Source: Persicaria tinctoria | Lineage: Eukaryota; Streptophyta; Magnoliopsida; Caryophyllales; Polygonaceae | Assembly: GCA_037127255.1 (NCBI GenBank) | Contig: JBANSL010000004.1 | Coordinates: 13,957,967 to 14,021,966, forward strand | Length of the DNA stretch: 64,000 bases | Direction: 5' to 3' | Part shown: positions 998 to 37,381 of the stretch, one piece after another | Layout: the number at the start of each line of letters is the position of its first letter | Position numbering within the stretch: position 1 is the first letter of the stretch | Translations under genes and position numbers: made by a program | The notes under the pieces: model-generated | The model's database searches: none | Told to the model about the DNA's origin: nothing | The model's input: only the letters and a program-made list of their open reading frames with translations

Positions 998-1538
998 TTC
1001 TCACGACCTCGAATCATAGGTCCATCCCCAAGTATAGATGTGTCCGGAGGTGTCTTTGATGATGGCTTGGATGGTCCCGCATCAGAGTAGTAGGCTCCAC
1101 GGGCAGAATTGATTATGCAATCGAAAGGGTTCGGTACCCAATGCTCCCGGAGGAGTCCAAATGTGCTTGCAGCAGTCCATAATACAGAGGCATGCATCCA
1201 TGCGCACTGTTTGAGGTCGTTTGTGAAAAAGAGAATCACATTTCTGCACCCTTGCGGGTCGGGTGTCTAGAGTGCAATGATTTTCATCCGGGCATTCGTG
1301 GAGCCTACGAGTGGAAGGTTGATGATCTTCTACTTCAACATATTCGGTCATTCTTCGCCGATGTAAACAGATGTGACCACGTTGACGTGGCTCAAACGGC
1401 AGGAATAATAGTGAGGGGAGCAAATAAAGAGGTCGCCACCTTTCCATTCAATGAGTTAAAGATTAAAATAGTTCCGAAGACGAACTAAGAATAGTATGGT
1501 CGATATGAAGAAAAAATTATGTTGTTATCGATGTTGTA
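998..1538. other. Unassigned stretch with weak open frames
   Basis: Frames are open on both strands (minus 904-1239 and 1082-1447, plus 1192-1488), but none shows a motif I recognise. The plus frame ends in a hydrophilic tail at 1488. On the minus strand the frame just before the LTR start reads GDGPMIRGREN, which faintly resembles the C-terminal tails of Ty3 polyproteins, so this may be the end of an internal region belonging to the LTR at 1-997. That is a guess. Confidence 0.25.
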
Positions 1539-1640
1539 TTTGTTAGTTGTGGTAATGCGTCGAAGTATGGAATTTGTTAGTTTCAGTAATGCCTCGATGT
1601 ATGTAATTTGTTAGTTGTAGTAATGCCTCGATGTGAAATC
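1539..1640. repeat. 34-bp tandem repeat, three units
   Basis: Three consecutive units start TTTGTTAG at 1539, 1573 and 1607. Each continues with AGTAATGC/GGTAATGC and TCGA, and the unit is exactly 34 bp. Units differ at a few positions. It lies between the unassigned frames and the plant-mobile-domain fragment. Confidence 0.75.
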
Positions 1641-1800
1641 TGATCGTTATCTATGAAGTGAAGCGTTTGCATGTGATTGTTTGTTGTTGTGATCGGGTAG
1701 AAACCATCGAAAATAATAACGCAAACAATACGAAATACACAAATATAGCATACCCACAAAATACGAAATGTATGTCATAAACAAAGGGACGATAATGTAT

Positions 1801-2610
1801 CTACTGCAGAGATCGAATGTAGCCCATGAAATGCTCGTACATCTGGTCTAGCTGGGGATGCCCGACCAATGCCTGAATGGCATGGGTCATCTCGTCGACC
1901 CAGGCCTGGCGAGCAGCAGTCTCAGCATCAACCTCATCCCCATCCCCATCTGGTCCAATGTCGTCGTCTGGGTGGGTAGGCGCAGCCGGAGGAGCACTAG
2001 GTAGTACCACTGTCGTGGGCAACACATGACCTCGACTCTGTGACTGGAACCAAGCGAGGTAGTCAGCTGTGACGCCTCCCTGACAGCTCTCGATCGTCCT
2101 CCTGTGACCAGTGACAGGGTAGAATCTCTCATCGTCCTGAGCTGCCCAACGGTGGTGCTGCATGTCGAACGTCAAGATGTAACGCCTCTGCAGGCGAAAC
2201 GGGCGCTGCATGAAGGACGGAAGGATGACGGCCAATGGCTGCTCCTGCACGCGGCCAAACTGTTGGAGCACCCTGTCTGGCATGTACGGCTCAAAGATGC
2301 CACAGAATCTGAGGGTGCCTCGATAGGTGGAGGAGCGAAACTGACCAGCGAAATCCAAGTCTCTGTCGAAAGGCATCCACTCGACCTATGTTCAGAAAAT
2401 GATATAAGGGAAACAATCTTACTCGACATATGTAGTTAAAATCAAAGAAAGTTATAAACAGGTTACCTTATCGATGGTCATGCGCTCAAGCTGTGCTCGA
2501 AGCTTCTTCTCCCTCTTGCGCCTCGTCTTGTCGTTCCCCCTGATCTCGGCCGTCGACGGGTCGAACCGTGCCATGTATCGGGGATCATGATCAAATGCAT
2601 CCCTGTCCGA
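1801..2610 (-). pseudogene. Plant mobile domain (PMD) protein, C-terminal fragment
   Basis: On the minus strand, an exon from about 2610 to 2467 ends ERMTIDK before a GTAACC donor. An 81-base intron (2466-2386) follows. The next exon starts GTCGAGTGG at 2385 and runs to a TAG stop at 1803-1801. The core reads YRGTLRFCGIFEPYMPDRVLQQ followed by FGRVQ, which matches the end of the plant mobile domain (aminotransferase-like, MAIN/MAIL family). That domain occurs in host silencing factors and in many plant transposons. The tail is acidic and proline-rich (residues around PTHPDDDIGPDGDGDEVD). The first two-thirds of the domain is not readable upstream, where stops appear near 2660, so I call it a fragment. 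Its C-terminal 190 codons are open. It is tail-to-tail with nothing and head-to-head with the OTU-like fragment. Confidence 0.6.
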
Positions 2611-3010
2611 GCGAAGACGGCCCACAAAACAAGGTACCCCTTGTCGTCTTATCTTGGCACATGCCCTTCACATGCCTCCCTATGTACACCGAACAACCAA
2701 ATGGCGCACCTCAAGAGGCCATACTGGGCATGACATGCATCGGCAACCAAGATCATTTCGCAGCGGTGAGTGTGATCTCACTCCAACCATAAATTAACTA
2801 TCATTAATTACCCCACTTAACATTATACTATACTTTTTGCCCTTTTTGCAGATATGGTTACATCCCAACGCCCCTTTACCTCCTCCAGCGCATGAATGGA
2901 CGGCACACCATCACCCGAGTGTCAACGGATGGGATACTCCCTTCCAAGACCAATTTGATAGATTTAGAGCATTGCAGATTCAGGAAGGTCGCTCTCTACA
3001 CCATGTTTAG
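2568..3010 (+). pseudogene. OTU-like cysteine protease, C-terminal fragment
   Basis: Two exons are readable. The first ends AAGATCATTTCGCAGCG at 2765 before a GTGAGT donor. An 86-base intron ends TTTTTGCAG at 2851. The second exon (2852-3010) closes at TAG 3008-3010, and the phase is kept. The product reads PLVVLSWHMPF, then GNQDHF, then WLHPNAPLPPPAHEW and GWDTPFQDQFDRF. This order is what I remember of the C-terminal third of OTU-type cysteine proteases found in or near plant Mutator-like and other elements, where the H of the DHF/NHF segment is the catalytic histidine. The cysteine half is absent, or lies upstream where the minus-strand PMD fragment overlaps. No start codon can be trusted (ATG 2568 is only the first in frame). 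I treat it as a broken transposon passenger. Confidence 0.6.
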
Positions 3011-3215
3011 GAGTCATGAAAGTTGGAATTATCTGTGTCGTATTTGTTTGTTTTCTTTTCTATGAAGTTCAGAGTTGAAAGTTGAATGTTTGTTGTTATG
3101 AAGACGTAGAAACAATATAAAAAAAGCAATCGTTCGACCAAAACAAACATCAGTTGGCCCCATATCTAAATTTACAAACGGGTTTTAATGTTACATTTCA
3201 ACAAGAGTTGTTGTA
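3011..3215. other. Spacer, nothing recognised
   Basis: About 200 bases between the OTU-like stop and the stop of the minus-strand small gene. It contains only short A/T-rich text. The two genes converge here, so this is a shared 3' region. Confidence 0.4.
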
Positions 3216-3665
3216 TTAAATGGAACAACTACCGACCGACTCTTCAGGAATGTTTGGGTATATACTAATCTGCACCTGCTGGAACGCATATGTCGTCATC
3301 AGATCTTGGGCAGGGCACACTACTGTATCAACTGCATACTCTGCTACCCTGCGACAGCGCGACGGAGACATGTCGTCGTACAAAACGACCAGGATATCCG
3401 TTATCTGCTCAATCATCCGTGTATAGTACGATGCAGGGTCGTCGTCGCAGTCTTGACACCCGAACTGCAACTGTGTTGACCTCTCCAGGATACGATAAAC
3501 CTGCACAGAAAGTAGATTGCATCGAAAATAATGTGTATAGTTCATATGCTTGCAGTTGCAAGCATCCTCCTTAGGCGGACGAGGGTGTCTCCCCACTTCA
3601 ACAACGAAATAGGTTCCATCATTGAACTTGGCATATTTGACAAAGGAATTTGGGCTTGATGCCAT
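3216..3665 (-). CDS. Unrecognised small protein, divergent partner of the B3-like gene
   Basis: An uninterrupted minus-strand frame runs from ATG 3665-3663 (MASSPNSFVKYAKF) to a stop at 3216, 149 codons. I chose this ATG rather than the upstream one at 3761 because a minus TATA-like box (CTATAAATA, 3715-3707) lies between them, though the implied leader is very short. The product has a Cys-rich patch (DACNCKH) near residue 32 and FGCQDCDDDPASYYTRMIEQ near residue 75. The rest is mixed alpha/beta-like sequence with no family I know. A CTGTGCAG at 3505-3498 on the minus strand could be a splice acceptor, but I see no matching donor that improves the product. It faces away from the B3-like gene across a dyad array. 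Function unknown. Confidence 0.45.
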   Translation of the reverse strand: MASSPNSFVKYAKFNDGTYFVVEVGRHPRPPKEDACNCKHMNYTHYFRCNLLSVQVYRILERSTQLQFGCQDCDDDPASYYTRMIEQITDILVVLYDDMSPSRCRRVAEYAVDTVVCPAQDLMTTYAFQQVQISIYPNIPEESVGSCSI

Positions 3666-3706
3666 TACGTGTGTTTCGTGTATGCCAATAACGCAAAATG
3701 TTGGTG

Positions 3707-3827
3707 TATTTATAGATGGCGTAATTAGCAACGTCCAATTAAACGATGTAACAACGTCCAATTAAACGTTGCTGCAACGTTTAATGTAACGTTTGTTAGC
3801 AACGTCATATTTGGCGTTGTATAAAGG
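3707..3827. promoter_or_regulatory. Bidirectional promoter filled by four phased dyads
   Basis: A minus-facing TATA box (TATAAATA, 3714-3707) and a plus-facing one (TATAAAGG, 3820-3827) bound a 92-base gap. The gap holds four inverted repeats at 3729-3748, 3752-3771, 3775-3795 and 3800-3819, starting 23, 23 and 25 bases apart. The consensus is CAACGTC-N6-GACGTTG; the fourth is adjacent to the plus TATA box. The plus box serves the B3-like gene (ATG at 3918) and the minus box the unrecognised small gene (ATG at 3665). The layout is what an operator for a dimeric DNA-binding protein would look like; that role is inference. Confidence 0.7.
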
Positions 3828-3917
3828 AGGCCTCACAAAAAACGAGAAAGGATTTCTCACTATAAATTACCCCATGCTAGGGTCGAAATTACAACATCTC
3901 GTTTGACAGAAGAAGAG

Positions 3918-4381
3918 ATGGCGGCCGGTAGCACACCAAGACCTTTCTTCTCAGTCACAGGGAGTGGCCCTAGGGATTTTTTCTGGTGGGTAGAAGACGT
4001 CTCGCTCACAGAAATACTGGTAAGCCCCCTTCTGTCTCACATCCGATTTACAACGGACCCAACTCATTAAGTAGATCTTGACATCTGCAGCCTCTGCCTT
4101 CCAACTTCGAGGAAGAATACGGGCTGGGGGGCGTCGAAAGAATAACGCTGACTAATGGGCCAGGGAGGAGAGGCACCAGCATCCGGGTAGAGCGCAACAG
4201 CTCCGGGGCACTCTGGCTCGCACAAGGATGGAATACGTTCGCGAGATCGCGTGGCATGCGGGTAGGCGCGGGTTTGATGTTTAGCTACTTAGGCAACGCT
4301 CGCTTCCGGGTCGTCGTAGTGCCGCCGAAAATGTTTCACCATCAGAGGAAGAGAACAACAATGATTTCCGCTGAGGTGTGA
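3918..4381 (+). CDS. B3-domain-like DNA-binding protein, two exons
   Basis: Exon 1 (3918-4019) starts MAAGSTPRPFFSV and ends TEIL before GTAAGC. A 71-base intron ends CTGCAG at 4090. Exon 2 (4091-4381) keeps phase 0, starts PLPSNFEEEYGL and stops at TGA 4379-4381. The spliced product has 130 residues. It shows the B3 order: a PRPFF start, then LPSNF (usual IP..F), then ITLTNGPG...TSIRVER as the central strands, then ALWLAQGWNTFARSRGM with the conserved W...GW..F, then VGAGLMFSYLGNARFRVVVV, where the family usually has GD.LVF.Y.G...F.V.VF. The usual D after VG is A here, and the tail MFHHQRKRTT is basic. It is about one B3 domain long, like short REM-type proteins. The gene follows a TATA box and a four-dyad array and has no in-frame break. 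The intron is at the short end for plants. Splicing is predicted from GT-AG signals only. Confidence 0.65.
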
Positions 4382-4647
4382 CATGGCAGCGACCCGGAAA
4401 AACTTATTTACTAAGTTATTTATGCTGTAATCGTCTATCATCAATATGAAAAATGAGGCAGTCTATAAGTTTTCATGTAACGTGTTTTTCCCTGAAATAA
4501 CCACAAATCATATTTGAAAACCCTCCGCGAGGGGCAAAACGCTCCAACAAAATAAAAGATGCAGCATCGCACTAAGTTTTTGCCAACATCCTACCCAACA
4601 AAAATAAAGATAATAGAACTTCAAAGTTGATCCAAGTGTTGCTGGTA
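4382..4647. other. 3' flank of the B3-like gene, nothing recognised
   Basis: It holds the likely 3' end of the B3-like transcript; ATGAAAAATG near 4445 could act in poly(A) choice. No other gene, repeat or motif is seen. The minus-strand frame at 4508-4783 is not gene-like. Confidence 0.4.
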
Positions 4648-4817
4648 CAAACGTCAGACTTAACGTTGTCTTTATTGTAAGTTCTAAGTGTTGCAACGTT
4701 GTATTGAACGTTGCTTTCTGGCCCGACGAGGCCCACTTTAGCAACGTCGGATTAGACGTTGCTAAAGTGTCCGACCCGTCCAACTTCCTTCAATTCACAA
4801 CGTTGTGTAGGATAAAT
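4648..4817. repeat. Second array of the CAACGTC dyads (left half)
   Basis: Dyads of the same consensus lie at 4648-4668, 4694-4713 and 4742-4761, spaced 46 and 48 bases apart (twice 23-24). A partial copy starts at 4798. The array is interrupted by the LTR insertion (TSD AAATG 4814-4818) and resumes at 11656. Confidence 0.75.
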
Positions 4818-7295
4818 GTGTAACGGCCCGGGATTATGATTCCCGGGTTACGTTTCGAGGGATGAAACCCCTCGTTAGGATCTTGCGCCCCGAGTACAGG
4901 TTGAAGGTTTGAAATTCTATCATAACATTTTAAAGTGGGATTTCATACCCAAAATTCGAAGGGATCGTTGGAATCCCCGGGGAAATCCCCTGTACCTGTC
5001 ATAAGTCTAAGCGTGGAAAACCAAAGGTTACACAAATAGCGGAAGTAAAGCATAATACAAAGGGGTGCCACGGCAGGGCCGGGTCAAACTATGATCAACC
5101 ATTCAAATTTGAGACATAATTAAATTGGTGAAGTTGGAATCTCAACTCTCTTTCCGCCATGTTAGACCCAACGGTCATGGACTCAAATCAGCATCAACAG
5201 TAGTAAGCATAACGGATACCTAAAAAAATTTGATATGGGGCGGGATCAGATCGATGCCCACTTTAGCTCTGCATCCCAACCCTAAGCACACATATATGCT
5301 ATACCTAATAAAGATGCTTCTAGATGCAAGACGGAATATTAACACACTAACATGCCCCTAAGATCAAGTGCATAATAATAATAATAAGGCCTTAGCACAA
5401 AATACCAAATGGTATATCCCTCTCCTACCTCCACCCCCTTCCGATAGGGCGGAGACTGGCCAGCTCGTGAATGCATTCATTCATAATCGGGGGGCACGCA
5501 TGCCTAACCCGTTCCACAATAAAGCCCACAGGCATAATATAAGGAAGTCCATGACTCGATTGACTCAGGGTACCCGATGAGGCTGGGCTACCCTATGACC
5601 CTAGCAAAGACTCTAGGACTATCACAGATAACGGCCGTTCTGTTTACATACACATAAAGAAATAGAATGCTCAACGATCGATGCAACCTAGAATGGTACT
5701 ACATGGCATGCTGATCATGAATGCAAGCACCTAGTATATCATGCACCTAAAGCAGGGAATAGCTCTATTCAATCTGAGTAAGCTCCGAAGAGACTTACCT
5801 GGCGGTGCAGAACAGCAAGGCAAGCATTATAATAGATTAAAGATCACCTAGATACATATCAGAACACATATATAAGTCTACGTCTCATCATCCAAGCACT
5901 CAAGCATATCATTCAACGAGAATAGCAACCATATCACAATCATCGTTCCATCAAGTTCAACCATTCATCATATTGCCACATTCCACAAGACCATATCATT
6001 CTCATCATTCCATTCAGTCACATTCATGTATTTGCCATAATATATCCGCAAAATAATCCGCATATCACATATATCAAGTTCATCATATTCATCATATCTC
6101 GAAAGTATAAATTAACGCTACACAAGTCTAACACTTCACCATGCCATTAGTCAATCAATCATGCCATTAGTACACACCAATCATGATATTAGTCAACCAT
6201 CTACATCAATCATGCTAGTTAGTCACCGATCACATAATTCCCGAGTTAGTCCCGAAACCCGTTTTGAAAACCGAGTTGACTAGTTAGAAATTCCGTCATT
6301 GGGAGATGTTCATCAAATTCCTTTTTCTAAAATCCAAGTCTCATAAGATTATTTCTGTTTTAATCACCATAGTATCATACCTTTAAATCTCAATAATAAT
6401 ATTTTATATTCTAAATCTCCATTTATATTAGATAATATTTTAAATACCACTTATTAACACTTTCGTAAAATATTTTCAAATCCCTTAGAATTCCCAATCA
6501 TTTCTATTTAATAAAGTTAGCCCTTAATGGAATTTACGAACTTCCCTCATTTTATAAAAATTACAACCTGGCCCCTTTATTTCGTTATTTACCAAAACCG
6601 ACCTCCCTTTTTAAAACAAGCCCAATTCCGTTGCTTTTGTTTTCTGAGAATGAAAAGGTCCAACAAAATACTCTTTGCTTTGAAAAGGGAAAGGCCCAAA
6701 AATCAGATGAAACTAGTACTTTTCCCGAACCATGTTCGGGTTTTTTTCGATATATTTTCGATCGAACGTCAATTTTCAACCAATATACTTCTCACCTTGT
6801 TGTTCTTCGAAATCTTTGGTTGTCATGGTGAATTATATCAAACTCCCAAACTATATTTCATACCATGAAAAATAACAACTCGACCCAAACTATATCAAAC
6901 TCCCAAACTATATGAAACTATGTTAATTAAGATGCAAGCTACATTGAATCCAAATACACATGATCCGTAACAATTCCGTCCTTCACAACAAACTAAAGAC
7001 TTTTACTCAGCACATTTCACAACACGGGCATGAAAAAAAATATGGCCATAACAACAGCAATGACATGAGTTAAACAGATCTAACAGCTACGCCATGAAAT
7101 AAGTATGGTTATAAGAACATCAATCAACCAACACAACTCAACATTAATAAGCATTAATCCCGAATTCCAATCCCAATTCCTCTCTCAATTTCTCCTCTTT
7201 TTTTTGTTCAATCTCAATCTTCGGGTTCGCAGCCAGGGGAGATGATGACGGGCGGCAGAGTGCCAAGCTCTGCCGGCGGGAGCCCCAGGTTTCTG

Positions 7296-7441
7296 ACGGC
7301 GTTGCAAACAGGATTAAGGAGCTGGTTCATTTTTTGGCTGCATAGTCGGTCGCGTTGCAAACAGGATTAAGGAGGGGAAGTTCACTCTTGATGGTGCTGA
7401 CTACTCCTTGCCCATCAACAACCATCTGAATAGTCTCCATG
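7296..7441 (+). pseudogene. Captured exon of aldose 1-epimerase (galactose mutarotase)
   Basis: 7348-7441 reads GRVANRIKEGKFTLDG then ADYSLPINN and NSLHG, directly before a GTATAT donor-like site. This is the well-known N-terminal stretch of plant aldose 1-epimerases, GRVANRI...GKF.L.G..Y.LP.N...NSLHGG. The catalytic histidines would lie further on and are not present. A second partial copy of the GVANRIKE coding bases lies just upstream (7296-7319), so the fragment is partly duplicated. No other exon of the enzyme is seen nearby. It probably came in as a transposon passenger, but I could not define the ends of the carrier. Confidence 0.75.
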
Positions 7442-8574
7442 GTATATATCATTCTAATTCATTTCAGGTTTCAACCTATATAAATTCGCTCTATGAATAT
7501 AGTGTTTACAATATCCACAGCTTGTTTTTAGTCATATACAATTAACATGTTAGTAACATTAGAGTTTTCACCGTTCATAATCACCAAAAATACACTATAC
7601 TGTGAGCATCAATCGTTTTGTAGCATGCGTCTGTCTCGAGTCAAGAAGCCTTAACTCAATCTTGTCTGTAAGTTTGATTCCTCAAAATTGCATTTCAAAA
7701 TGTTATTTCAAAACCATAAATTCAGACAAATTGATTTCGGGAACCACTAATCTTTTTTTCTCGTGATTCTTTCTATGGCATTTCATCAAACAGGTAGAGT
7801 GCATGACTAAATGGTACTTCAAAACCATAAATGTCAGGAGCTTTTATTCGTCTAAACTTTATATGTAATCAAATACATGTAACTTCCTGAAATTGAAACC
7901 CCTAAGGCCCTAACCCCTAATTGAGTTTGAGTTGAGCCAAAATTATCAACCTCGGATTGAACTCAAATACCACATTCAATCTAACCAACAAATTGAGTCA
8001 GAATTCATGAAATTGAAAGAAGTAAATTTTGACAAAACTGAAAACTGAAAATGGAATAAGGTGAATACCTCTTTTGATGAATTTTCTAGTTATTTCTAAA
8101 ATCTAGATCAATGACAAAAAAAAAAGAGGGCGTTAAGGGTGCATACCAATTGCCCTCCTCCTGGCGCTGACTGATTCCGCTCGTCCAAGATTCCAACGGC
8201 GAAGCGAGAATAGGCGAGTGGAGTTCTAGTAGAGCGAAGGCCATGCGGCAAATCCGAGCAAAGAATTCATATTGGATCCACGCGAGGGAGGCCGTGGATC
8301 TGGTAGAGCGACGGTCCGACGGTTACGGTTGATAGTAGAGCAACCGTCCGGCGAGAGGAGATGCGAGGGAGGTCGTGGATCTGGTAGAGCGGCGGTTCGG
8401 CGGAGAGGAGATGCGAGGGAAGCCGTGGGGGTGCGGCGCGGCGAGGGACCTCCACCTTCTCCGGATCTGGGTGCCCCGACCTCGAATCCGAGCGAGGGAG
8501 ATGAACGGATGTGAGCGAGACTGTGATATCGATTGTGGAGCGGCAATGAAGCTGATGTGAGGGATAGGGATGTG

Positions 8575-8750
8575 CAGAAAAACCCGACACGACTGACCCG
8601 ACACGAAACCGGGGCGATATGACACGAAAAAACACGACACGAAAAGGACACGACACGATAATGACACGAACCGTGAAAACACGAAAATTAATGGTTCGTG
8701 TATGGTTCGGGAAAATCTCGTTACCGGATACCCGGCACGAACCATCGAAC
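8575..8750. repeat. Cluster of GACACGA-type short motifs
   Basis: About a dozen degenerate copies of GACACGA/ACACGAC and a few inverted TTCGTGT copies follow TAGGGATGTGCAG at 8565-8577. Such clusters are typical of the subterminal parts of hAT-like elements. I did not find the matching opposite end, so this may be one end of a truncated element. Confidence 0.4.
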
Positions 8751-8829
8751 CGTTTATTTTTATTTTTTAAAAAAAAATATAGCGAGCTGTGTATTTAATA
8801 TATATTAGATGTAGTTAATTAGGATCACT

Positions 8830-8935
8830 AAGTCATGATAGCTCAATTGGTTGGCTGTGTGGGGAGAGTTTCAAAAGAGACTTGGAGTGGTGGGTTCGAA
8901 TCCCATTACTTCCTAATTTTTTGTGTAGGGTAAAA
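8830..8935 (+). repeat. SINE-like tRNA-derived sequence
   Basis: TGATAGCTCAATTGG (8836-8850) fits the RNA polymerase III A box. GGGTTCGAATCCC (8892-8904) fits the B box, 50 bases on. The T stem pairs, but the seven bases on each side do not form an acceptor stem, so this is not a working tRNA. A tRNA-derived SINE head is the simplest reading; its 3' end is not clear. Confidence 0.55.
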
Positions 8936-9937
8936 GGCTGAAAATTTGGCTTCATAGAAGGACACGTGGCACAATATTTTGTGAAGACATTGCTTCTAAA
9001 ATAATAAGTATAAGGGGTGGATATTAACAAAAATAGGCCCAATTTAATTGCCTTTGATTTTAAAACAAAAACCAGCCCAAGAAAACAGGCCCAATTTTGG
9101 ATCCCCACCAAGTGAAATCTGAATGTTGTTTTAATGAGCTAAGCCGGCTTTTTTTTAAATAATTTCATGAACCGGGTCAGTTTTTAAAAGAAAAGGACTA
9201 AACCGAACCCATGGAGTACTGTTCATCGCCCCTCACCTCCGCTCCTGTGCGAGAACAGAAGGAAAGGAAGGAGGGTCGCGCCTCGCCTGAGTCCCCTCGC
9301 CTCACCCCGCTCTCGAGTCACGCTCCCCGACAACTAACCCCACAATAACAAGGAGAACAGAATCGAACGAGGAAAGGGAGGAGAGAATTCGGAGCTCACC
9401 GGGGTTCGAGGTTTCACCGGGCTTCGATTGGCTTCGACGGAGGCTCGGGGCTGCGCTTCTCGGCCTGGGGTGAAAAGAAAGAGATTAAAGGTGGAGCCTT
9501 GAGACATTTTAGAGTGAGAGGAGGAGGAAGTAAGCTCACCGCCTGGAATCGAAGAAATCGAGAAAGCGGGGGAGAAGAAGGCCTCGGCAGCGGCGCGAGG
9601 AGCTCCTGGGCTGGTCGGCTTCGCTTCGGCCAGGAACAAGGTGCTCGGGGTACCCAGTTGCCGGCCAGAATCAAGAGGATTGTGGCGGATGCTGCTGCTG
9701 CGTTCTCGGGGAAGGAGGAGGTGCTCTGGTGGTGGTGTCGGCGGGAACAGGGAGAAAGGAGGCGGGGCTTGACTCATTAGGGGAAATAGCCAAAGATGGG
9801 TGTTTGTTTGCAACCAAGAGTGTGAAGAGGGAGTGGAGTGTGGGTAAGGTTCTGTGGGTTGTGGGTTTTGGACTCAATTTAAAAAGGAAGTGATCTCCCC
9901 CTGTTGTTGTTTGCTGTTGCGATGGGGCAGGGGAGGT

Positions 9938-11207
9938 TGATGTCATCCTCAAGCGGAAGAAGAAGGCTCCACCTTGGGAGTCGTTAAAGAAACGACGTTA
10001 ATTATTTTATTAATTATTATTTTATGCAATTAGATTAATAATGTACAAGATTATATCTCCTCTAGATATATCTTGTTCCCTAAGCTTTAGAATTATATCT
10101 TCTTAGGATTTATTTATCTTTAAGTTATTTCATTTATCTTAGATAGAATTAAATCTATCCAAACCTCTTTCCTTTGCAAGGAAGGATTGGTTAGATCTCT
10201 TAGAACTTTATTATAAATTCATGTTACACCCTTTGAATTTAATCAGATTGAAAATTAGAATTGAAGAAACCCTTAACGGAATTAGGGTTCTTCGATTATC
10301 AATCCCAAAGGCTATTTGGCTCATATGTTATTCGGCACTCATCCAATTACAATCATCACCATCACCGTTCTGCACAATCATCATCGTCTTCAACCTCCTT
10401 CGCCGATCACCAAAACCAGCGCATAGGAGAGGAACGCAGCCTTGGTGCCGCCGGTGTCCGAGCTCGCTCTAGCGAGTGCGGCTCCATCGCCGCGTGCGCA
10501 CAAGCCCCCTGTACTCGCGAACCCCGGCTCCCGCTCGCGCGCGCCTGCACCAGCCTCGAGTAGACTCCGTATGGATACCGAGAGCGCGAGGCTGGTGCAG
10601 GCGCGCGCGAGCGGGAGCCGGGGTTCGCGAGTACAGGGGGCTTGTGCGCACGCGGCGATGGAGCCGCACTCGCTAGAGCGAGCTCGGACACCGGCGGCAC
10701 CAAGGCTGCATTCCTCTCCTATGCGCTGGTTTTGGTGATCGACGAAGGAGGTTGAAGACGATGGTGATTGTGCAGAACGGTGATGGTGATGATTGTAATT
10801 GGATGAGTGCCGAATAACATATGAGCCAAATAGCCTTTGGGATTGATAATCGAAGAACCCTAATTCCGTTAAGGGTTTCTTCAATTCTAATTTTCAATCT
10901 GATTAAATTCAAAGGGTGTAACATGAATTTATAATAAAGTTCTAAGAGATCTAACCAATCCTTCCTTGCAAAGGAAAGGGGTTTGGATAGATTTAATTCT
11001 ATCTAAGATAAATGAAATAACTTAAAGATAAATAAATCCTAAGAAGATATAATTCTAAAGCTTAGGGAACAAGATATATCTAGAGGAGATATAATCTTGT
11101 ACATTATTAATCTAATTGCATAAAATAATAATTAATAAAATAATTAACGTCGTTTCTTTAACGACTCCCAAGATGGAGCCTTCTTCTTCCGCTTGAGGAT
11201 GACATCA
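9938..11207. mobile_element. 1.27-kb near-perfect palindrome with LTR-type ends
   Basis: The left arm (9938-10558) and right arm (10587-11207) are reverse complements of each other with only scattered single-base differences. The loop is about 28 bases (10559-10586). The outer ends read TGATGTCATCC and GGATGACATCA, that is TG...CA, and the flanks carry a 5-bp duplication GAGGT (9933-9937 and 11208-11212). Because of the symmetry, both arms give the same frames (starting MKKPLTELGFFDYQ). These are not convincing genes. The 5' sequence of each arm resembles the LTR at 1-997. It was inserted into the LTR at 4819-11649. See findings. Confidence 0.85.
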
Positions 11208-11655
11208 GAGGTGGTTTGGCATTTTTCCAAAAACGTGAAGCAAGAAAGGTAGGGAAGGAGATGGGGGAGGGGTTGGTGTTGAGCTCAATTGGGAAACAAG
11301 CAAGCTGGCTGGGTTGCAGCTCTGCAAGTCAAACGGAAGAGAGGGTGTTTGCTTTGACCGAAAAGAAAAATAATACAAGGGGATAAGACAAGGTTGTGAG
11401 TGGTCCCAATAAATTATGTATACCCGGAACAAATACCGAAACCAACTCTCTCGATCAGTTAGAATTTCAAAATTCCGAGGAAGGGTGTCGCCATGTCAAG
11501 TTAGTTTTTAAAATTTTATTTCAGGTCGGAATTCCGCTCCATGAATTTTAATATCCAAGTTAGCAAGCTTTCCGTTAAATTCCACTTTTAAATTCATTTT
11601 TACTTTCTCTTGTCGAAAAATTAGGATTAAGAAAATCCGAGCCTTTACAAAATGA

Positions 11656-11758
11656 CAACGTCGAAATGAAAGTTGTTGCAACGTGAAATCGAACGTTTCT
11701 ACAACGTCATATTCGACGTTTCATTAACAGCGCTAATCGTGGATTTGTGGTGTATATA
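11656..11758. promoter_or_regulatory. Continuation of the CAACGTC dyad array, then a TATA box
   Basis: Dyads at 11656-11675, 11679-11698 and 11702-11721 start exactly 23 bases apart. A TATA-like GTATATAGG lies about 30 bases beyond (11751-11759), the same order as at 3729-3827. If transcribed to the right it would enter 11.76 kb, but only a tiny frame follows. It is the right half of the array interrupted by the LTR at 4819-11649. Confidence 0.65.
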
Positions 11759-11759
11759 G

Positions 11760-13025
11760 GGTGACCCTTTATTTCCCCTTCAATACATGCTTTGGGGGCT
11801 TTCCATTTTCATGGATTTTCAACGAGAATAGGTTATGCAATTAAGCATTTGTGTTCCTTAATGTTATCACTTTTTTGCAAATAGATGAGAAAAATAATAC
11901 ATATTACGTATAGTCAATATGCTATCCACAATATAAACAACACCAACATGTATAAATTAGACCAAAGTAAACAATCGAGTAATTACCTATATTGGCAAAA
12001 AATAATAGCTCTTTGTAACAATCGAATCCTTTTGCTAGGTTGAATGTGATAATCTATTGTGATACTTTAATTATAAAAGTATATATAACAATGTGATATC
12101 TATCTAAATCAATCTTTAGATATAGATCTATCTATCTATCTATACATACGTACATACATATAACATATCTATAGATAGATCTATCTATATCTATTTATAA
12201 GTAATATCAATTTATCTTAAAAAACAAATTACCCAATTCTAATAATCGGTGCATAAGGCACACTTTATTAATTTATATAATTTTATTAACTAATATACAA
12301 AGTATATTTATATTTTCTTTAATTAGATAGAATAGATATACTTCTAATTAATAATTCATGGCATGATTTAGCAACATGACAATTAGGAAAGTATAAAACT
12401 GTAGTTACCCATTTATATGAAATATCTATACATACATACTAAACTAACCAACATAAATTATTAACAATAATATTTTATCATAATTTATGGAAAGTCTTCC
12501 TAATTAAGCTATAATCTATCTTAACATATTTTAGTAAATTAATAAAAATACAAATAAAAAAATTTCATAACAAAACTTACCAAAAATATTGATAGATAAA
12601 TATTTGATTGATTTTATTTTATTTATATCTAGATTATTTTGATGGAAAGAATTATTTATATCTTCATTAATATTTATTTAAATATATCTCCTCACATATT
12701 TATTTAATTATGTTGTAAATTGTAATTGATATTAATTTATAACTCTATTAGAATATTTTTTTACGTACTGTTATATATTTTTTAAGACGAGGAGTATTTG
12801 TTAATGTATTTAAAAAATATTATGGTTCAATTTTTATAAAAATTCAAAATTTTGAAAATAATATTTGTTTTGAAAAGATAATTTAGACGAAAATTTTCTT
12901 TTTTAATTTGTTAAAACCAATTAATTTTTTTAAATAAAATTATAATTAAAATGGATCGTTACTCTCTCTATTTGATATGTTTTGTGACGATTTTATTCAT
13001 CGAGAAATAAACAATTTTAGTAAGA
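11760..13025. other. AT-rich spacer without genes
   Basis: Very AT-rich text with no coding frame of note. It contains a (TCTA)n-like microsatellite at about 12119-12200. No element ends were found. Confidence 0.5.
12119..12200. repeat. Degenerate (TCTA)n microsatellite
   Basis: TCTATCTATCTATC tracts with ATACATAC interruptions and a mirror-like AGATAGATC block. Confidence 0.75.
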
Positions 13026-13839
13026 AATTTTAATATTTGTTGCAAATAAAAATTGAAATTTGCCATAATTTTCCTAGTAAAAGTAACGACCAAGTGATTC
13101 CCTCGCTAAATAGTTGTTTTAATGACAAAAAAGATTCATCATAAAAGATGATCATATAGCACGGAATTGAATCTTTTCTCGTTAATGAACCTGAGTCATT
13201 TTCTCTATTTTTACTCAAGCCCACAACGACCAAATGATATTTCCTCGTTGATTAATATATTTAGTAACAAACTTTTTCCTCGGTAAAAACTTTTAGCGAT
13301 GAATTAGGATCTCATTCACTACTAAATTTGGCGAGGAATTTAAATTTTGTCGTTAGTAAATTTGCGTACTTTTATCTATTTTCATCCAACCCAATAGCGA
13401 TGAAAATGGAATTTCCTCGCTCATCAATATGTTTAGCGAGAAATTCATTCCTTGAGAAATACATATTTTTAGCGAAAAATTACAATATTTATCACCCATA
13501 AATTTGGCGGGTTTTAATAATATACACCAAACATATAGCGACAAAATATGAAATTCCTCGATAATTTAAATTTTTAGCAATGAAAATATACCTCAATAAA
13601 AGTTCCAAATTCGTCACTAATTTTGTCATGCTTTAGGCGACCACATTCTAATAACAATTAGTGATGAATCAAAAAAATTGTCGCTAAATGTCACATTTAG
13701 CGAGGAATATAGATTACTCACTAAAGTTCACATGTCCTTGTGCGACGACCGGTTATGTTCGTCGCCAAAGGCCACATTTATCGAGGAAAATAATTTGTCG
13801 CTAATGTTTTGGTCACTAATAGGGATTTTTGTTGTAGTG
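13026..13839 (-). mobile_element. Terminal region of a CACTA-like element (one end)
   Basis: The right edge GGGATTTTTGTTGTAGTG (13822-13839) is the reverse complement of a CACTACAAC... CACTA terminus. For about 800 bases inward there are many short motifs of the kind TAGCGAGGAAT and TTGTCGCTAA in both directions, as in CACTA subterminal regions. The partner end is not seen in the window, so the element is truncated, or its other end lies left of base 1. Confidence 0.6.
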
Positions 13840-17740: not shown

Positions 17741-18519
17741 ATGTCGGATAATGGCATGAGAATCAAACCATTTGATGGTACCACTGATTTCTCTATATGG
17801 CAGCTCAAGCTTAAGGCCATACTCATTAAGGAAAAGTGCTGGAAGACTGTTCTGGGACAGTACCCAGAGGGAGCCACTGATGCAGTTAAGAAAGATTTGG
17901 ATGACACTGCTCATTCAGAGATCTTTATACGTCTTTCTGATGACGTGGCTCGTTAGGTTGTAAGTATTTCTAATCCTAAAGATCTATGGGATACTCTGGA
18001 AACTCTTTACCTGACAAAGTCCTTGCCTAGTCGTATTGCCATCTTGTGTCGTCTGTTTAACTTTAAAATGGACACAAATCAGTCTCTACAGTCAAATTTG
18101 GATAAATTTTTGAGGAGACTCAGGATTTAGAGAGATGTGATAAAAAGGACACAATTAAAGATGAATATTTGGCTATTCTGTTGTTGAATTCTTTGCCACC
18201 TCAGTTTGATGAGTTGAAAGATGTCATCCAGTACAGTCAGGAGTCTATAACTAAAGATAAGATTCTTGAGTCTATTGTGCAAAAGAATGAAAGTCTGAAA
18301 GTGTTTAAGACTAAATCTGACAATAAGGGTGAAACTAAAACTGAGGTTCTTATGGTCAAAGGTAAAAAGAAAAAGAACAACAAACAGAAAAACAAGGATA
18401 AGAAATCTGAGAATGAGGATAAATCTGCTGCTTCATCTTCTAATTCTGATAAAAAGAACAGAAAGTGTCATTATTGTGGTATCTATGGTCATTATATTAA
18501 GGAATGTCATAAGAAATAA
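17741..18519 (+). pseudogene. Copia gag remnant
   Basis: ATG at 17741 opens MSDNGMRIKPFDGTTDFSIW, the start of a Copia gag (capsid) protein. A TAG at 17954-17956 breaks it at about residue 72. Other stops and a frame change follow near 18128-18170. Another frame then continues with LLNSLPPQFDELKDVI, a Lys-rich stretch and a CX2CX4HX4C zinc knuckle (CHYCGIYGHYIKEC) near 18466-18507. TAA at 18517-18519 then separates gag from protease in the same frame. Non-functional as it stands. Confidence 0.85.
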
Positions 18520-21500
18520 AGGGATGAAGCTGAGAAAAGTCAAACTCAATCTGCTGCTGTGCTTGAGTCTCATTATCCCTGTGAATTGCTTGTTGCTAGT
18601 GACTGCCATGCCTTTGATGATTCCTGGATCCGAGATTCAGGATGTATTGTGCACTCTACTCCTAACAAATCTGATTTCAGCTCATTGCAGGTGTTCAATG
18701 GGGGTGAGGTCATGTTAGGTGATCACACCTCCCTTGAAATCAAAGGGGTTGGTAATGTGCCTCTATGTATGTTTGATGGTAAGGGCAGGCTCCTCCAAAA
18801 TGTTAAGGGGGTGCCACAACTGAGGAGGAGATTGCTTTCTGAATCTGTTTTTGATGATATGAGTTTTGATATAAAAATTAAAAATGGTGTTAGGGAGGTC
18901 ATCAAAGATGGAATCACAATTATTAAAAGCATTAAAAAGGGAGGGTTGCACTTTGTCCAGTCCTCACCTGAAGTTAATGTTGCTAGTAATAGTGGCTCCA
19001 TGGATTTGCATCAAACTAAGTTGCTGCATAGTAGGCTAGGTCACATAGGAAATCATGGTATGCGATATCTGTTTAAACATGGCTTAATTGATCATAAACC
19101 TATGCATCTTGACTTCTGTGAAACATGTGTGTTTGGTAAAAAGGTTAAGCATGTTTTTGGTATTTCATCTTATGTTGCTGAAAGGCCTTTAGAATATATA
19201 CATTCTGATTTGTGGGGGCCTGCACAAGTTGAAACCATTAGAGGTAAGAGATATTTTATTACCTTTGTTGATCATTATTCTAGGAAAGTTTGGCTTTATC
19301 TTTTGAGAACCAAAAATGAAGCATGTTCAGACTTTTATAACCTGGAAAAATTTAGTTGAAAATCAAAATGGTAAGAAGATAAAATGTCTCAAAACTGACA
19401 ATGGGGTTGAGTATTGCAATGGTGAATTTGATGATTTCTGTAAGCAACATGGCATTAAAAGACATCTTACTGTTCCTGGTACTCCACAACAAAATGGGAC
19501 AGCTGAGAGAATGAATAGAACATTGTTAGAAAAAGCTAGATGCATGCTTGTTAGTTCTGGTTTGAAACACTCTTTGTGGGGAGAGGTTGTTACAACAACA
19601 GCCTATCTTATCAACAGATCCCCATCTTCTGTGGTGAAATTCAAAACACCATAGGAGATGTGAACTGGGAAGGTACCTAACATGACCTATCTTAGGCCAT
19701 TTGGTTGTGCAGCTTACCCTCATGTTTCACAGGGTAAGTTGCACCCAAGGGCTCAAAAAGGGGTCATGTTAGGCTACCCAGATGGTGTAAAAGGATATAA
19801 GATCCTCCTTATTCAATCTCATGGCTATAAGGTTATCATCTCTAGGAGTGTAACATTCAATGAGTCTGAATTTCCTTTCAAAACAGTACTGAACAAGATG
19901 TCACACAACCTAGACACTTCTACAATTAGAATGACCTTCCACCAGTGGATGGTGAAGAAGAATTTGATATTGGACAATACAGTCCTGCAACAGCTAGTCC
20001 AGATTCCTCTACTCAACCCCTCCAAGAGGGGACTGAACCCAATGAGAATGTTGAGCCTGTTGTGGCTCCTACAAATTCTCAAGATAAATCAAGTGAGGCA
20101 GAAAGCTCACATACTCAACAATTAAGGGAGGGAATTCAACAAAGGGAGTTACATTCTAACCCTAGCTCTTCTTCTTCTACTCATGAATTTATTGCTGATG
20201 ATGCATCTGATTCTGGTGTGATTTCTATTCCTCAGCATGATAATTCTGACTATCAATTAACAAGAGATAGATCTCCTAGGGTGAGAATCCCAAACAAAAA
20301 ATTTCTGAACAATATTGTTGAGTACGGCTTCCTTGCTTCTGAGATTGTTTTGCATCCTTTTGTGCCTGAGACTTATGAGCTTGCTGTTAAATGTGCTGAG
20401 TCTAAACACTGGTTTAAAGCTATGTGTGAAGAAATTTCATCTATGACAGCTAATGAAACTTGGATTCTTGTTAAGAAAACTGAAAAAGCTAGAGTCATTC
20501 AGTGCAGATGGATCTATAAGTTGAAAGAGGGTGTTAATTCTAGTGAACCTCCTAGGTATAAAGCTAGACTTGTGGCTAAAGGGTTTACTCAAAAAGAGGG
20601 CATAGACTATAATGACATATTTGCTCCAGTGGTTAAGTACAAAACTCTGAGATTGTTGCTTGCCATGTCTGCTGTGTATGATTGGGAATTGGAACAAATG
20701 GATGTTAAGACTGCCTTTTTACATGGTGGACTGGATGAAACTATCTATATGTCTCAACAAAAAGGATTTGTAGATAAGTTTAAGCATGAACATGTGTGTT
20801 TGCTGAAAAAATCTATTTATGGGTTAAAACAGTCACCTAGGCAGTGGAACCTGAAATTTGATTCCTGCATGTGTAAGCTTGGTTTCCACAGAAGTGAGTT
20901 TGATAAATGTCTTTATTTCAAAGGTGTTGGTTCTAAGACTCCATTATATGTACTCCTGTATGTTGATGATATACTTATTATTTCAAATTCTAAGATTCTC
21001 ATTGTTGGAGTTAAAAGGGATCTAAAGATGCACTTTGATATGAAAGATCTAGGACAAGCTCAGAAAATTCTTGGTATTAAGATCAACAGAGACAGAAAAA
21101 GAAAACTTATGTGGTTGTCCCAATCTGAATCTGTTCATAAAGTCTTGGATAGGTTTCAAATGACTAATTCTAAATCTGTTGTGGTTCCTCTAGGAGGGCA
21201 TTTAGAGTTGTCTAAGAAACAGTGCCCTACATCCCAATCTGAAATTTTAAAAATGAGCAAAGTGTCTTATGATGTTGTTGTTGGATCTGTCATGTATGCT
21301 ATGCTTTGCACTAGGCTAGATTTTGCTTTTGCTATCAGTGTTTTGAGCAGATATATGTCTAATCCTGGTGAACCTCACTAGAATGCTATGAAATACTTGA
21401 TGAGATATCTTTGTGGCACTGAAAAGAAATGCTTGATGTATACTGAACACAGCTCTAGAAATGATTTGGTTGGATATGTAGATTCTGATTATGCTGGCAA

Positions 21501-21828
21501 CAAAGATAATAGGAAATCTACTTCTGCTTATTATTTCACTTGGGCTGGCAATTGTGTGTCATGGAAATCTCAACAGCAGTCAACTGTAGCTCTCTCTTCC
21601 ACTGAAGCTGAATACATGGATGCTACAGAAGCAACCAAAGAAGCTATTTGGCTCAGAGGTCTCCTTGAGGAGATTGAGAGAAAGACTTATCTGCTTACTG
21701 TGTTTCTTGATAATCAAAGTGCTATCTATTTGTGCAAAGTTCCTCTTTATCATGAAAGAACTAAGCATATAGATGTGAGATTCCATTACATTAGGAAGAA
21801 GGTCAAGCATAAAGCTCTTAATTAATGT
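18520..21828 (+). pseudogene. Copia pol remnant (protease, integrase, RT, RNase H)
   Basis: Protease: DSWIRDSGCIVHSTP, with the DSG active site near 18622-18640. Integrase: the HHCC finger (LLHSRLGH ... CETCVFGK), then catalytic D in HSDLWGP, D in KTDNGVEY and E in GTAERMN. A +1 shift at about 19320-19360 splits the core, and stops follow at 19652 and 19661. A further shift near 19900-19945 precedes the RT frame (19945-21381), which keeps MDVKTAFLHG and LLYVDDILII. A TAG at 21379-21381 separates it from RNase H (21388-21828), which keeps DSDYAG, STEAEY and LDNQSAIY. Four stops and at least two shifts make it dead, though the RT core frame alone is long and open. Confidence 0.9.
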
Positions 21829-33633: not shown

Positions 33634-36600
33634 TGTTAATATTGTATAGTGGGCTAAAAGCCCATTAAGGCTCAATACCTTTATAACCTATATATATATG
33701 TTATATCAATGAATGGAAACCCTCAAGGAGGACTTTACATCAATTCTATCATTCTACATGGTATCACAGTCTTTTCTTCCTCACGGAACCCTAATTTGAT
33801 CCTCCAACCCCACCCCTCTTCTTTCGCCGCCGGCGTCGTCCCCTCGCCTCACCGGCCTCGCCGCCCTCCTCCTCCCTGTCCTGTCTTGCCGCCGCTCCAA
33901 TTGGAATTCCACGCCACCATCCCCCACAACCTCTCTCTCACCTTTTTTTTTCCAAAAAAAAAAAAAACTTACCATGGCCTTCTCCGATCGCCAACGACCT
34001 CTCGTCGGGATCATCGCCCCTCCAAAGTCTCTACACCAACATCACGCTTTCTTCTCTATGCAACCGACATCTTCAGACTCTTCTTGGTACATGGACACTG
34101 GTGCCACCTCCCACATGACAAACTCCTCAGGTAACGTCTCATCTATTTTTTTTAAGGGCCCTGCCCACTCTATTATCGTCGGAAATGGTGGTCGTCTTGC
34201 CACTTCGGGGATTGGCCACGCCACATTACAGACCCCCAACCCACCCACTACACCTCAAAAATGTCCTTATTGCCCCAAAGATTGTCAAAAACCTTATCTC
34301 TGTCCGTTGGTTCACTACTGACAACAACGTTTCCCTTACGTTTGATCCATATGGTTTATCTGTGAATGATCTTACTACGGGGGTTACTCGCATGAGATGT
34401 AACAGCGCCGGGGAGCTCTACCCTGTCACACCACCACCCGCGTCTAGTCAGTCGTGCCCGGTCGCCCTCTCGGCATCGTCGTCCAGCATGTGGCATGCAC
34501 GCCTGGGCCATCCCAGTGTTGCCGTTCTAGATGTCCTCCGTTCTCAGAGCCTTGTCACCTGTCATAAAGACCCACGCTCTGGTTTATGCTCTTCCTGCCA
34601 ACTAGGCAAACATGCCAGACTGCCGTTCCAACGGTCTTTGACCTCTACCCTTGCTCCGTTTGATATCATTCACAACGACATTTGGACCTCTCCCGTGCCT
34701 AACAAGGAGGGTCACAAGTACTACCTCTTGTTTCTTGATGATTACACTCATTACTTATGGGTCTTCCCATTGCATTTCAAGTCTCAAGTGTTTCCTGTCT
34801 TTGCCAGATTCCATACCTACATCAAAACACAGTTTCACATGTCCATCAAATGTTTCCAATGTGACAATGGTTGTGAATTTGACAACAAAGATTTTCACTC
34901 CTTCTTTGCCGCAAATGGGATCTTCTATTGCTTATCTTGCCCCTATACTTCTCAGCAGAATGGCAAGGCAGAAAGAATCATCAGAACCATTACCAACATG
35001 ATGCCCTCTCTCCTCTTCCACGCATCTATTCCCCTTCCCTATTGGCCTCACGCCTTATCCATCACATGTTATCTCCTAAACATTCTCCCTTCCACTACCC
35101 TACACCATCGCTCGCCAACTCAGACACTTTATTACGCCGAGCCTAGGTATAATCACCTTCGCACCTTCGGGTGCTTGTGTTTCCCAAACCAGTCCTCCAC
35201 AGCCCCGCACAAGCTTCACCCGCGCTCCACTCCATGTGTCTTCCTAGGCTATCCGTCTGATCATCGCGGTTACATTTGCCTCGATATCAAGACCCACAAG
35301 ATCATTCTCTCACGTCATGTCACCTTTGATGAGTCGCGATTTCCCTTTGCGTCTCCCACACCCCCTGTGTCTCCGTCACAGTCCGAGTCACCATTCCCTC
35401 ACTTCCTTTTTCCACAGAGCTCTCCCGGTGCTCCTGCTTCTCCCCCAACACCACCACCACCACCAGATCACACACCGGCAGCGTCTCCGGTGTCTTCCGA
35501 CCCCGTCAGATCGTCTCCATGACCACCGCCCATCACCCTGCTATCCACCTCCCATCACCCCGCCAAACAGCCTCCCGTCACCTACGTGCGGCGCCCGCCG
35601 CATGTACAAATGCTGCGCCCGCAGCTTTACACCCCTCCCTGGAGGCGGCCGCCGCAACCCTCGCCGTCTTTGACCCGCCTGCCGCCTCTTCCCCTTGCTT
35701 AGCCCCTCTTGCTCCCGTCCTTCCCGACTCTCATTCACCCTCTGCCCCCACCCAGACCTCCCTCTCCCCCGTTCCCACCTCCCACAAAACAGCCCTCCTC
35801 GACCCGAATTGGCAGGCGGCTATGCTCGACGAATACAGGGCCCTTACGAAGAATGGTACTTGGGTTCTTGTTCCTCGCCCTCCTGAGGCGAACGTCATTC
35901 GTTGTATGTGGCTTTTTTGTCACAAGTTCCGCTCTGATGGGATGTTGGAGCGCTACAAGGCCCGTCTTGTGGTGAACGGTAGATCTCAGCAGGCCGGTAT
36001 TGATTGTGATGAGACCTTCAGCCATGTGGTCAAGCCTGCCACTATCCGAGTGGTCCTGAGTCTGGCTCTGTCGCGCAACTGGGCCATCCATCAGTTAGAT
36101 ATCAAGAACGCCTTTCTACATGGTCATCTGAACGAGACAGTTTACATGTTTCAGCCGCCGGGGTTTACTGATGCTGAGCGCCCAAAGCATGTCTGTCTCC
36201 TCAAGCGCTCTCTATATGGTCTGAAACAGGCTCTGCGAGCGTGGTTCCAGCGTTTTGCCTCTCATCTTCTCCGTTTGGGTTTCACTGGCAGCCGTTCAGA
36301 TACATCTCTATTTATCTATCGCAGAGGCTCAGATTTGGCATTCCTGCTGCTTTATGTCGACGACATCATTCTCACCGCCTCTTCTGATGCTCTTCGGACG
36401 TCGATAATCTCGCAGTTGAGTGCGGAATTCGCCATGTCTGATCTGGATCATCTGTCTTACTTCTTGGGAGTTGCTGTTCAGCGGCATGCGTCTGGTATGT
36501 TTCTCTCACAAAGTAAGTATGCTGCAGAGATTGTTGCTCGGACTAAGATGGTCAACTGTAATCCCGTCGCGACCCCAGTCGATACATCCAACAAGCTCAG

Positions 36601-36990
36601 TGCTCATTCTGGTCCTTTGGTTGACGATCCCACACTGTATAGTAGCCTCGTTGGTGCTCTTCAGTATCTCACTTTCACCAGGCCTGATATCAGTTACGTC
36701 GTTCAACAGATCTGCTTGTTCATGCATGCCCCTAGGGAACCTCACTTTCAGGCTTTGAAGCGGATCATTCGGTACATCAACGGCACCCTCGAGCTCGGCA
36801 CCACCATCACTCATTCCTCTAAGCTTGATCTTGTGGCTTACACTGATGCGGATTGGGGTGGTTGTCCAGACACACGTCGCTCCACGTCTGGTTACTGTGT
36901 CTTCCTCAATGACACTCTTGTATCTTGGTCAGCCAAGCGTCAGTCCGTCGTGTCTCGTCGATCTACTTCTTGCAAAAAAAAAAAAACCAT
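33634..36990 (+). mobile_element. Copia element with short LTR; gag and 3' end missing
   Basis: The 5' LTR (33634-33758, 125 bases) starts TGTTAATATTG, carries CCTATATATATATG and ends CATTCTACA, followed by the primer site TGGTATCACAG. Only about 320 bases separate it from protease, so gag is deleted. Pol ends inside RNase H near 36975, where the text turns into an A run. No 3' LTR is found. Short LTRs of this form are typical of the Retrofit/Hopscotch type. Confidence 0.85.
33974..36990 (+). pseudogene. Copia pol with frameshifts, truncated in RNase H
   Basis: Protease: WYMDTGATSHMT (DTG) near 34089. A shift at about 34230-34320 leads into the long frame 34185-35522, with the integrase finger (MWHARLGHPS ... 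CSSCQLGKHARLPF), catalytic D in IIHNDIWTS, D in FQCDNGCEF and E in NGKAERIIRT. A second shift and stop near 35520 precede the RT frame (35519-37057), with LDIKNAFLHGHL, KRSLYGLKQALRAW and LLYVDDIILT. RNase H keeps AYTDADWGGCPD and SWSAKRQSVVSR, then stops matching. The Pro/Ser-rich linker between integrase and RT is normal for the family. RT and integrase cores are otherwise open, so the element is fairly young. Confidence 0.88.
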
Positions 36991-37381
36991 TTCATTAAAA
37001 AATGTCATATTTATGTTTAAATTATATATTAAACCCTTTCTTTCAATATTGGTTTAAAAATAATTCTTCATCATTTTTATCTATATTTTTTGTTTCTCTT
37101 CTATTTTTTTTTACCCTCAACTATTTAAATAAAAAAAAATCATTAACAATAAAAATTTTAGTGTTTTTTCAATATTTTTTTTATAAAATCTTCTTATCAA
37201 GTATACAAAAAAAAAATCACAATTTTTTTAGCACATTTTTTTCAGCACCTCCCTACCTACCTGAAATCCTGACTCCGCCACCGAGCAAAATCGATTAAAA
37301 AAAAAAGTATACATTATTTATTGATCATCCCACATGGCTTCAATTGAATTCACAGCAGGACCAAATAAACGTTGTGTATTA
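36991..37381. other. AT-rich spacer after the truncated Copia
   Basis: T/A-rich text. A short GC-richer piece at 37244-37290 resembles a scrap of another repeat. No gene is seen. Confidence 0.45.

Follow-up and report, generated by a model that had tools for sequence, protein, structure and literature searches.

Phased palindromic arrays of a B3-bearing Mutator-like element in Persicaria tinctoria as candidate self-recognition sites

What do regularly spaced palindromes do between the genes of a plant transposon, and which protein reads them? The question is raised by a stretch of 64,000 nucleotides from Persicaria tinctoria (contig JBANSL010000004.1, positions 13,957,967 to 14,021,966, or C4:13957967-14021966), which as a whole is called the window here. 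A sequence-only reading had noticed in it arrays of a 20-bp inverted repeat, CAACGTC-N6-GACGTTG, around a B3-like gene and a divergent small gene, and had proposed that the B3-like protein binds these dyads and controls its own divergent promoter. The arrays belong to a DNA transposon of high copy number, a Mutator-like element (MULE) that is present here in a decayed copy, and there is about an even chance that the dyads are cis-sites through which this MULE controls its own genes and that they are read by an element-encoded dimer, most likely of the B3 protein.

When up to three mismatches are allowed, the dyad pattern is matched 12 times in the window, where 1.29 matches would be expected, and none of 100 dinucleotide shuffles reaches 12. 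All ten dyads reported before are among these matches, four in array 1 (3729, 3752, 3775 and 3800; array at 3729-3819), three in array 2 (4649, 4694 and 4742; 4649-4761) and three in array 3 (11656, 11679 and 11702; 11656-11721), and only the dyad that had been placed at 4648 has to be moved, to a start at 4649. The start-to-start spacings are likewise borne out, with 23, 23 and 25 bp in the first array, 45 and 48 bp in the second (46 and 48 had been given), and 23 and 23 bp in the third. The remaining two matches, at 21258 and 27174 with three mismatches each, look like chance, and what had been listed near 4798 as partial consists of a fused half-site (CACAACGTTGTG, about 4797-4808), which fails as a dyad even at five mismatches.

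Throughout the 1.68 Gb of genome that were scanned, tandem dyads at the same threshold of three mismatches were found 7,340 times (3,680 + 3,660), as compared to 31 times (16 + 15) with a reversed control. The arrays adjoin conserved element ends with the common sequence CCCTATATACACCGCAAAT, and the terminal inverted repeats (TIRs) are mostly CGCGTTCCCTATATACACCGCAAAT at the left end and GGGTNNCCCTATATACACCGCAAAT at the right end. An exact 8-bp target duplication, with the element running from CGCG... on the left to GGG... on the right, is present in six of ten two-ended copies (the MULE criterion is about 9 bp); one of the other four shows poly-T, and three have no exact duplication, including the 12.2-kb copy described below. 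The two-ended copy that served as reference (L061, C1:34027001-34037000) encodes a MULE transposase domain at 5246-5857 (PF10551, E=3.5e-17, 63.1 bits, cut-off 27.6). Two further groups, L012 and L029, are dyad-bearing subfamilies, and 8 of the 30 array loci retrieved, several of which overlap, are elements of 430-500 bp that consist of TIRs and dyads only and resemble miniature inverted-repeat transposable elements (L001-L004, L013, L025, L027 and L028).

The longest two-ended copy has 12.2 kb (L063 and L064 joined) and contains 37 dyads in six arrays, whereas 200 mononucleotide shuffles of it give a mean of 0.38 and a maximum of 3. From the left, an end array is followed by gene1 on the plus strand, a PMD (plant mobile domain) gene on the minus strand and an array at 5867-6028; a further array at 7018-7241 lies upstream of gene3 (minus strand), one at 8255-8426 between gene4 (minus) and the transposase gene (plus), one at 12243-12354 between the small gene called partner (minus) and the B3 gene (plus), and the last at 13204-13419, before the right TIR. 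The gene set of the family comprises the MULE transposase, the antisense PMD gene, the B3 gene and four small orphan paralogues (gene1, gene3, gene4 and partner). The arrays were called non-coding from open reading frames (ORFs) and gene matches. In the reference copy, which lacks about 4.5 kb of the middle in comparison, the antisense PMD gene is recognized by PF10536 with 50.3 bits for the best piece. The tail of its transposase region (L061:6540-7225) has no Pfam match; by eye, motifs like those of OTU proteases can be seen there (GDGHCGYRA and NQDHFA). The arrays next to the PMD and transposase genes may serve these genes as promoters. Of the earlier picture of a divergent B3/partner promoter, the association of arrays with B3 has stood, while the transposon itself, its end arrays, the further intergenic arrays and the additional genes had been missed.

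This distribution also bears on the possibility that the dyads are subterminal repeats, bound by the transposase or a transposition complex and serving mainly for mobilisation. The arrays do begin near both TIRs, and it is just the TIRs and arrays that the 430-500-bp derivatives have retained, but of the six arrays that the longest copy has, four lie internally between genes, where a purely terminal role would not need them, and we consider this explanation improbable.

In a set of 533 dyads from 50 non-duplicate loci, chosen at up to four mismatches, the consensus is CAACGTY-NNATNN-RACGTTG, with an arm conservation that is in part due to this selection. The spacing of neighbouring dyads is 23 bp in 199 pairs, and the next commonest value, 48 bp, occurs in 24 pairs. 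Extra symmetry in the dyads was considered and rejected, as no covariation between the dyad arms was found in this set; the complementarity of the arms is what base frequencies predict, so that there is no sign of selected within-strand pairing. Besides this type A there is a type B, as eleven of the B3 loci described below are flanked by dyads of the form YACCGCA-N6-TGCGGTR, again with the geometry 7-6-7 and with spacings that are mostly 22-28 bp and sometimes 31-48 bp. Genome-wide, the 23-bp tandem of TACCGCA is found 1,108 times against 172 times for the control, an excess weaker than that of type A. The half-sites are graded from CAACGTC (A) via CACCGYA, which is found at L056, L081 and L085, to TACCGCA at the other eight loci.

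The ACGT core within the A-type half-sites is the core bound by plant bZIP proteins, which would agree with a host transcription factor whose sites have been hijacked by the element. The half-site YACCGCA, however, lacks the ACGT core and still occurs in the same 7-6-7 geometry, at similar positions and with a similar period, and as two half-sites in one geometry can be reconciled with a single host factor only with difficulty, we consider a host reader very improbable. One geometry that is used with two half-sites and recurs between the element's genes rather argues for a symmetric reader of one type, encoded by the element itself.

As judged from sequence, the B3 protein is the first-choice candidate for this reader, with chances that we would call balanced. 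It has about 130 residues and a single B3 domain, with nothing else in Pfam, and at least 169 matches to it, relatives among them, were found in the genome (150 of 6,656 candidates were scored). The best 30 loci (L031-L060, with L031 being the window copy) and 16 loci picked for divergence (L070-L085) were examined for dyads. All of the best 30 have at least three dyads within 1.3 kb, 29 of them of type A and one, L056, of type B (L040 has three matches to the B pattern in addition to its type-A arrays), and so do 15 of the 16 divergent loci, five with type A and ten with type B, only L070 having none. An ordinary host gene with its own promoter has been rejected as an explanation of the B3 gene, because all 30 top copies lie among arrays and the arrays belong to a TIR-bearing repeat. 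The expectation that dyad arrays and the B3 gene always go together largely holds from the side of the gene, not from that of the arrays, since 8 of the 30 array loci have no such gene. Arrays without B3, which had been named as evidence against a B3 reader, thus do exist in the form of the 430-500-bp elements, but as these are non-autonomous derivatives, their presence is still compatible with a B3 protein that acts in trans.

Five relatives of the B3 gene (L065-L069) have no arrays but only isolated weak matches, with at most one in a rescan of L065-L068. They are intronless, have 57-61% identity and match as a single uninterrupted stretch. These are likely host genes, one of which may be the source of the transposon B3 gene. 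The transposon gene has one B3 domain, whereas in L065 a second one is weakly matched a short way upstream (21.8 bits, not reaching the cut-off). No homologue of the transposon B3 protein was found in the protein database at E ≤ 0.001 among 22 candidates, and the sole match among solved structures up to E 10 is PDB 1yel, the plant B3 protein At1g16640, which we take to be of the REM group; with E=0.053, the similarity is weak.

Other candidate readers in the element are the four small orphan proteins, which could be a fast-diverging and self-regulating set of DNA-binding proteins, with B3 as a passenger or as a second regulator. Gene1, gene3, gene4 and partner are paralogues of about 150 residues (some of them located at L064:1991-3545 and L061:1843-2262), with 25% identity between partner and gene1 (E=8e-10), 47% between partner and gene4, and 34% between partner and gene3. 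A pattern C-x-C...C occurs in most members, as would befit such a set, and most end in ESVGSC. There are four paralogues in the longest copy with an array upstream of each, and the small genes of type B are only 22-29% identical to gene1 and 23-34% to partner, while the B3 proteins of the two types are far more alike, which would fit the change of the half-site. This divergence helps the orphan proteins only a little, because it is as large within family A, where the paralogues have 21-48% identity to partner. Moreover, there is no Pfam match for the 149-residue partner, and no significant fold match in PDB and viral libraries for its AlphaFold2 model (pLDDT 84.9). In the protein database, partner has four homologues and the profile of the small-protein family seven, all on ENA contigs below 1.4 kb. 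The paralogues are an orphan family whose predicted model is confident but has no significant fold match. As readers of the dyads we consider them unlikely, though they deserve to be kept in mind.

For the B3 protein as the preferred reader, the comparison of the two dyad types has brought complications. In a DNA tree of B3 copies (50 rows; bootstrap unsettled), 10 of 11 B copies form one clade (99/97) inside the A copies, with L056 and L081 at the base of the B clade, and L085 stands apart among A copies. What the types share is a B3 cassette of about 700 bp that begins shortly behind the promoter array and ends ahead of the 3' array. As compared to the reference copy, this cassette is 91.6% identical in L056 (701 bp) and 82.8-88.7% identical in L080 and L081, and the arrays do not match except in L085, where the match extends into A-type remnants. 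Because the cassette is much alike and the small genes and arrays are divergent, the cassette is common to two otherwise different element families, of which the B-type family is probably a MULE as well. The residues that part most A and B copies of B3 are 58-59, 71, 83, 89 and 104 (numbering of L068), of which only 58 separates in the case of L056.

Several of these observations weigh against the B3 protein as the reader. The cassette is common to families with small genes of no more than 22-34% identity, and L056 has a B3 gene that is open in both exons and only a few residues off the A-type, although the dyads around it are 12 of B-type and none of A-type, which weakens the case for B3 binding to the dyad and keeps the small paralogues or the transposase in play. 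In L085, an A-like B3 is flanked on either side by B-type arrays, with two A-type remnants in addition, L084 has the 'B' residue R71 together with A-type arrays, and L070, a relative of B3 that shares its intron position, has no arrays. Also the pN/pS of 0.27 for B3 exon 2 over 435 pairs, which suggests purifying constraint, is biased downwards, as the copies were ranked by protein score. A strict co-evolution of B3 and dyad had first been favoured after L072 and was then weakened by L056, L085 and L084. L085 itself (C2:26787301-26789900) is an apparent recombinant, in whose 3' region the two A-type dyad remnants lie.

If B3 is nevertheless the reader, a dimeric element-made protein, most likely the captured B3, would occupy every 7-6-7 palindrome, with the dimers stacked side by side by the regular period. 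Arrays occupied in this way would keep the promoters and ends of the element open and mark the element as self, and the protein would act in trans also on the short derivatives that have nothing left but TIRs and arrays. The outcome would be autoregulation and a sequence-specific anti-silencing, as VANC does it for VANDAL elements. Binding and dimerisation of B3 are putative in this scheme, and activation or anti-silencing appears a more plausible outcome than repression or transposition. By analogy, we interpret the whole as a system like VANC, encoded by the element and using palindromes, for regulation or for anti-silencing. More doubtful, but to be considered, is a fuller history in which a host B3 was captured by a transposon and became the core of its self-recognition, with dimers on phased arrays at promoters and ends that protect from silencing; the cassette would later have moved between two families, with the geometry kept and the code word changed, and the strategy of VANC would have been invented independently.

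Like the VANDAL elements of Arabidopsis, the element is a multi-gene MULE with family-specific motifs that are arrayed in non-coding, intergenic and terminal parts, and in the passages of PMC5735166 and PMC10398659 on VANDAL, short motifs arrayed in non-coding regions are described that differ between related families and turn over, together with an element protein that lifts the silencing in trans. In contrast to the VANC21 motif YAGTATTAY, which according to these passages is arrayed in one orientation, the unit is here a 20-bp palindrome, and the term 'B3 domain' does not occur in PMC5735166 and PMC10398659. Anti-silencing is a property of VANC and for the present element a proposal by analogy. 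The Spm element of maize is a CACTA element with subterminal repeats, and to our knowledge neither its protein TnpA nor MURA of the maize element MuDR is a B3 protein. Similar to what is proposed here, TnpA and MURA are element-encoded proteins that are linked to a lower methylation of their own elements in the relevant passage of PMC10398659. MULE families with a transposase and an antisense PMD gene are described for several plant clades in the parts of PMC6446971 that deal with them, and the present element resembles these but differs from them, as they are described there, by its dyad arrays; neither 'B3 domain' nor 'OTU' occurs in the text of PMC6446971. ARFs dimerise on inverted repeats that they bind through their B3 domains, with a spacing of 7-8 bp (IR7/IR8), as stated in the pertinent part of PMC10690724. 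The element shares with ARFs the B3 domain and the inverted repeats, here with 7-bp half-sites that are 6 bp apart and with a putative B3 binding, but the half-sites are CAACGTC or YACCGCA instead of TGTCNN, and in its B3 protein Pfam finds the B3 domain only and no ARF dimerisation domain. MULEs with accessory genes and motif arrays are already known, and what is new here, as far as the literature matches listed show, is the combination with a B3 gene and a palindromic code. None of these matches is a MULE with a B3 gene or with phased palindromic arrays, and PMC12111241 holds 'b3 domain' and 'mutator-like' once each.

The copy in the window extends from 1085 to 11767 on the plus strand, as judged by blastn against the reference copy, which matches in the blocks 1085-2634 (98.2%), 2629-3749 (97.9%), 3729-4818 (96.2%) and 11650-11768 (97.5%). 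The left end and the first codons of gene1 are missing, with the break at 1085, and what remains of this partner paralogue lies at 1085-1488 on the plus strand (homologous to L061 1843-2262). It is followed by the antisense PMD gene remnant (1804-2634, minus strand; PF10536, E=2.6e-6, 27.3 bits, which does not reach the cut-off of 34.9), an internal deletion at about 2629-2634 that has removed the catalytic part of the transposase, and the 3' remnant of the transposase gene (2635-3007, plus strand), a tail with OTU-like motifs seen by eye, which maps to L061 from 6847 on. The divergent small gene of the sequence-only reading is real and corresponds to partner, a 149-residue ORF of the orphan family at 3219-3665 on the minus strand with four homologues of 71-90% identity. 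Array 1 is located in the divergent promoter of partner and B3, where the two outward TATA boxes that had been described are indeed seen by eye; it has four dyads here and five in L061 and many other copies, one being missing in the window. Also the B3 gene, at 3918-4381 on the plus strand, proves to be real, with two exons (3918-4019 and 4091-4381), a GT-AG intron (4020-4090) and a PF02362 domain above cut-off (E=7.9e-8, 32.6 bits, cut-off 30.1), although the last about 20 residues are frame-shifted relative to other copies.

Arrays 2 and 3, which had been taken as separate, are the inner and the outer half of one right-end array, as indicated by the comparison with L061 and by the counterpart of array 2 in L033, which continues uninterrupted up to the TIR. 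They have been split by an insertion of 6,831 bp (4819-11649) with TG...CA ends and a 5-bp target duplication AAATG at 4814-4818 and 11650-11654; a direct repeat of the ends of this insertion was looked for and not found. It contains a near-perfect palindrome of about 1.27 kb (about 9938-11207), and a sequence with 83% similarity to its first 1.7 kb is found also near the 12.2-kb element (L063/L064). The third TATA-like box near 11750 turns out to be part of the right TIR of the element (GGGTCACCCTATATACACC... when read inward; 11743-11767, minus strand), as known from the conserved element ends. Outside the element, Copia-like retrotransposon coding fragments were judged from ORF translations at 18413-21825 and 34185-37057, and likewise by eye a likely host gene similar to sulfate transporters at 37919-44458.

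VANC is a well-studied case of transposons that escape silencing through a sequence-specific self-recognition, and if the proposed function of the dyads is true, the P. tinctoria element would be a second such system, based on B3. As its natural sites number in the thousands and comprise two code words and graded intermediates, one could then test directly how protein and DNA correspond and how this code switches, and the B3 gene would be a transcription factor that has been captured by a transposon and now works for it.

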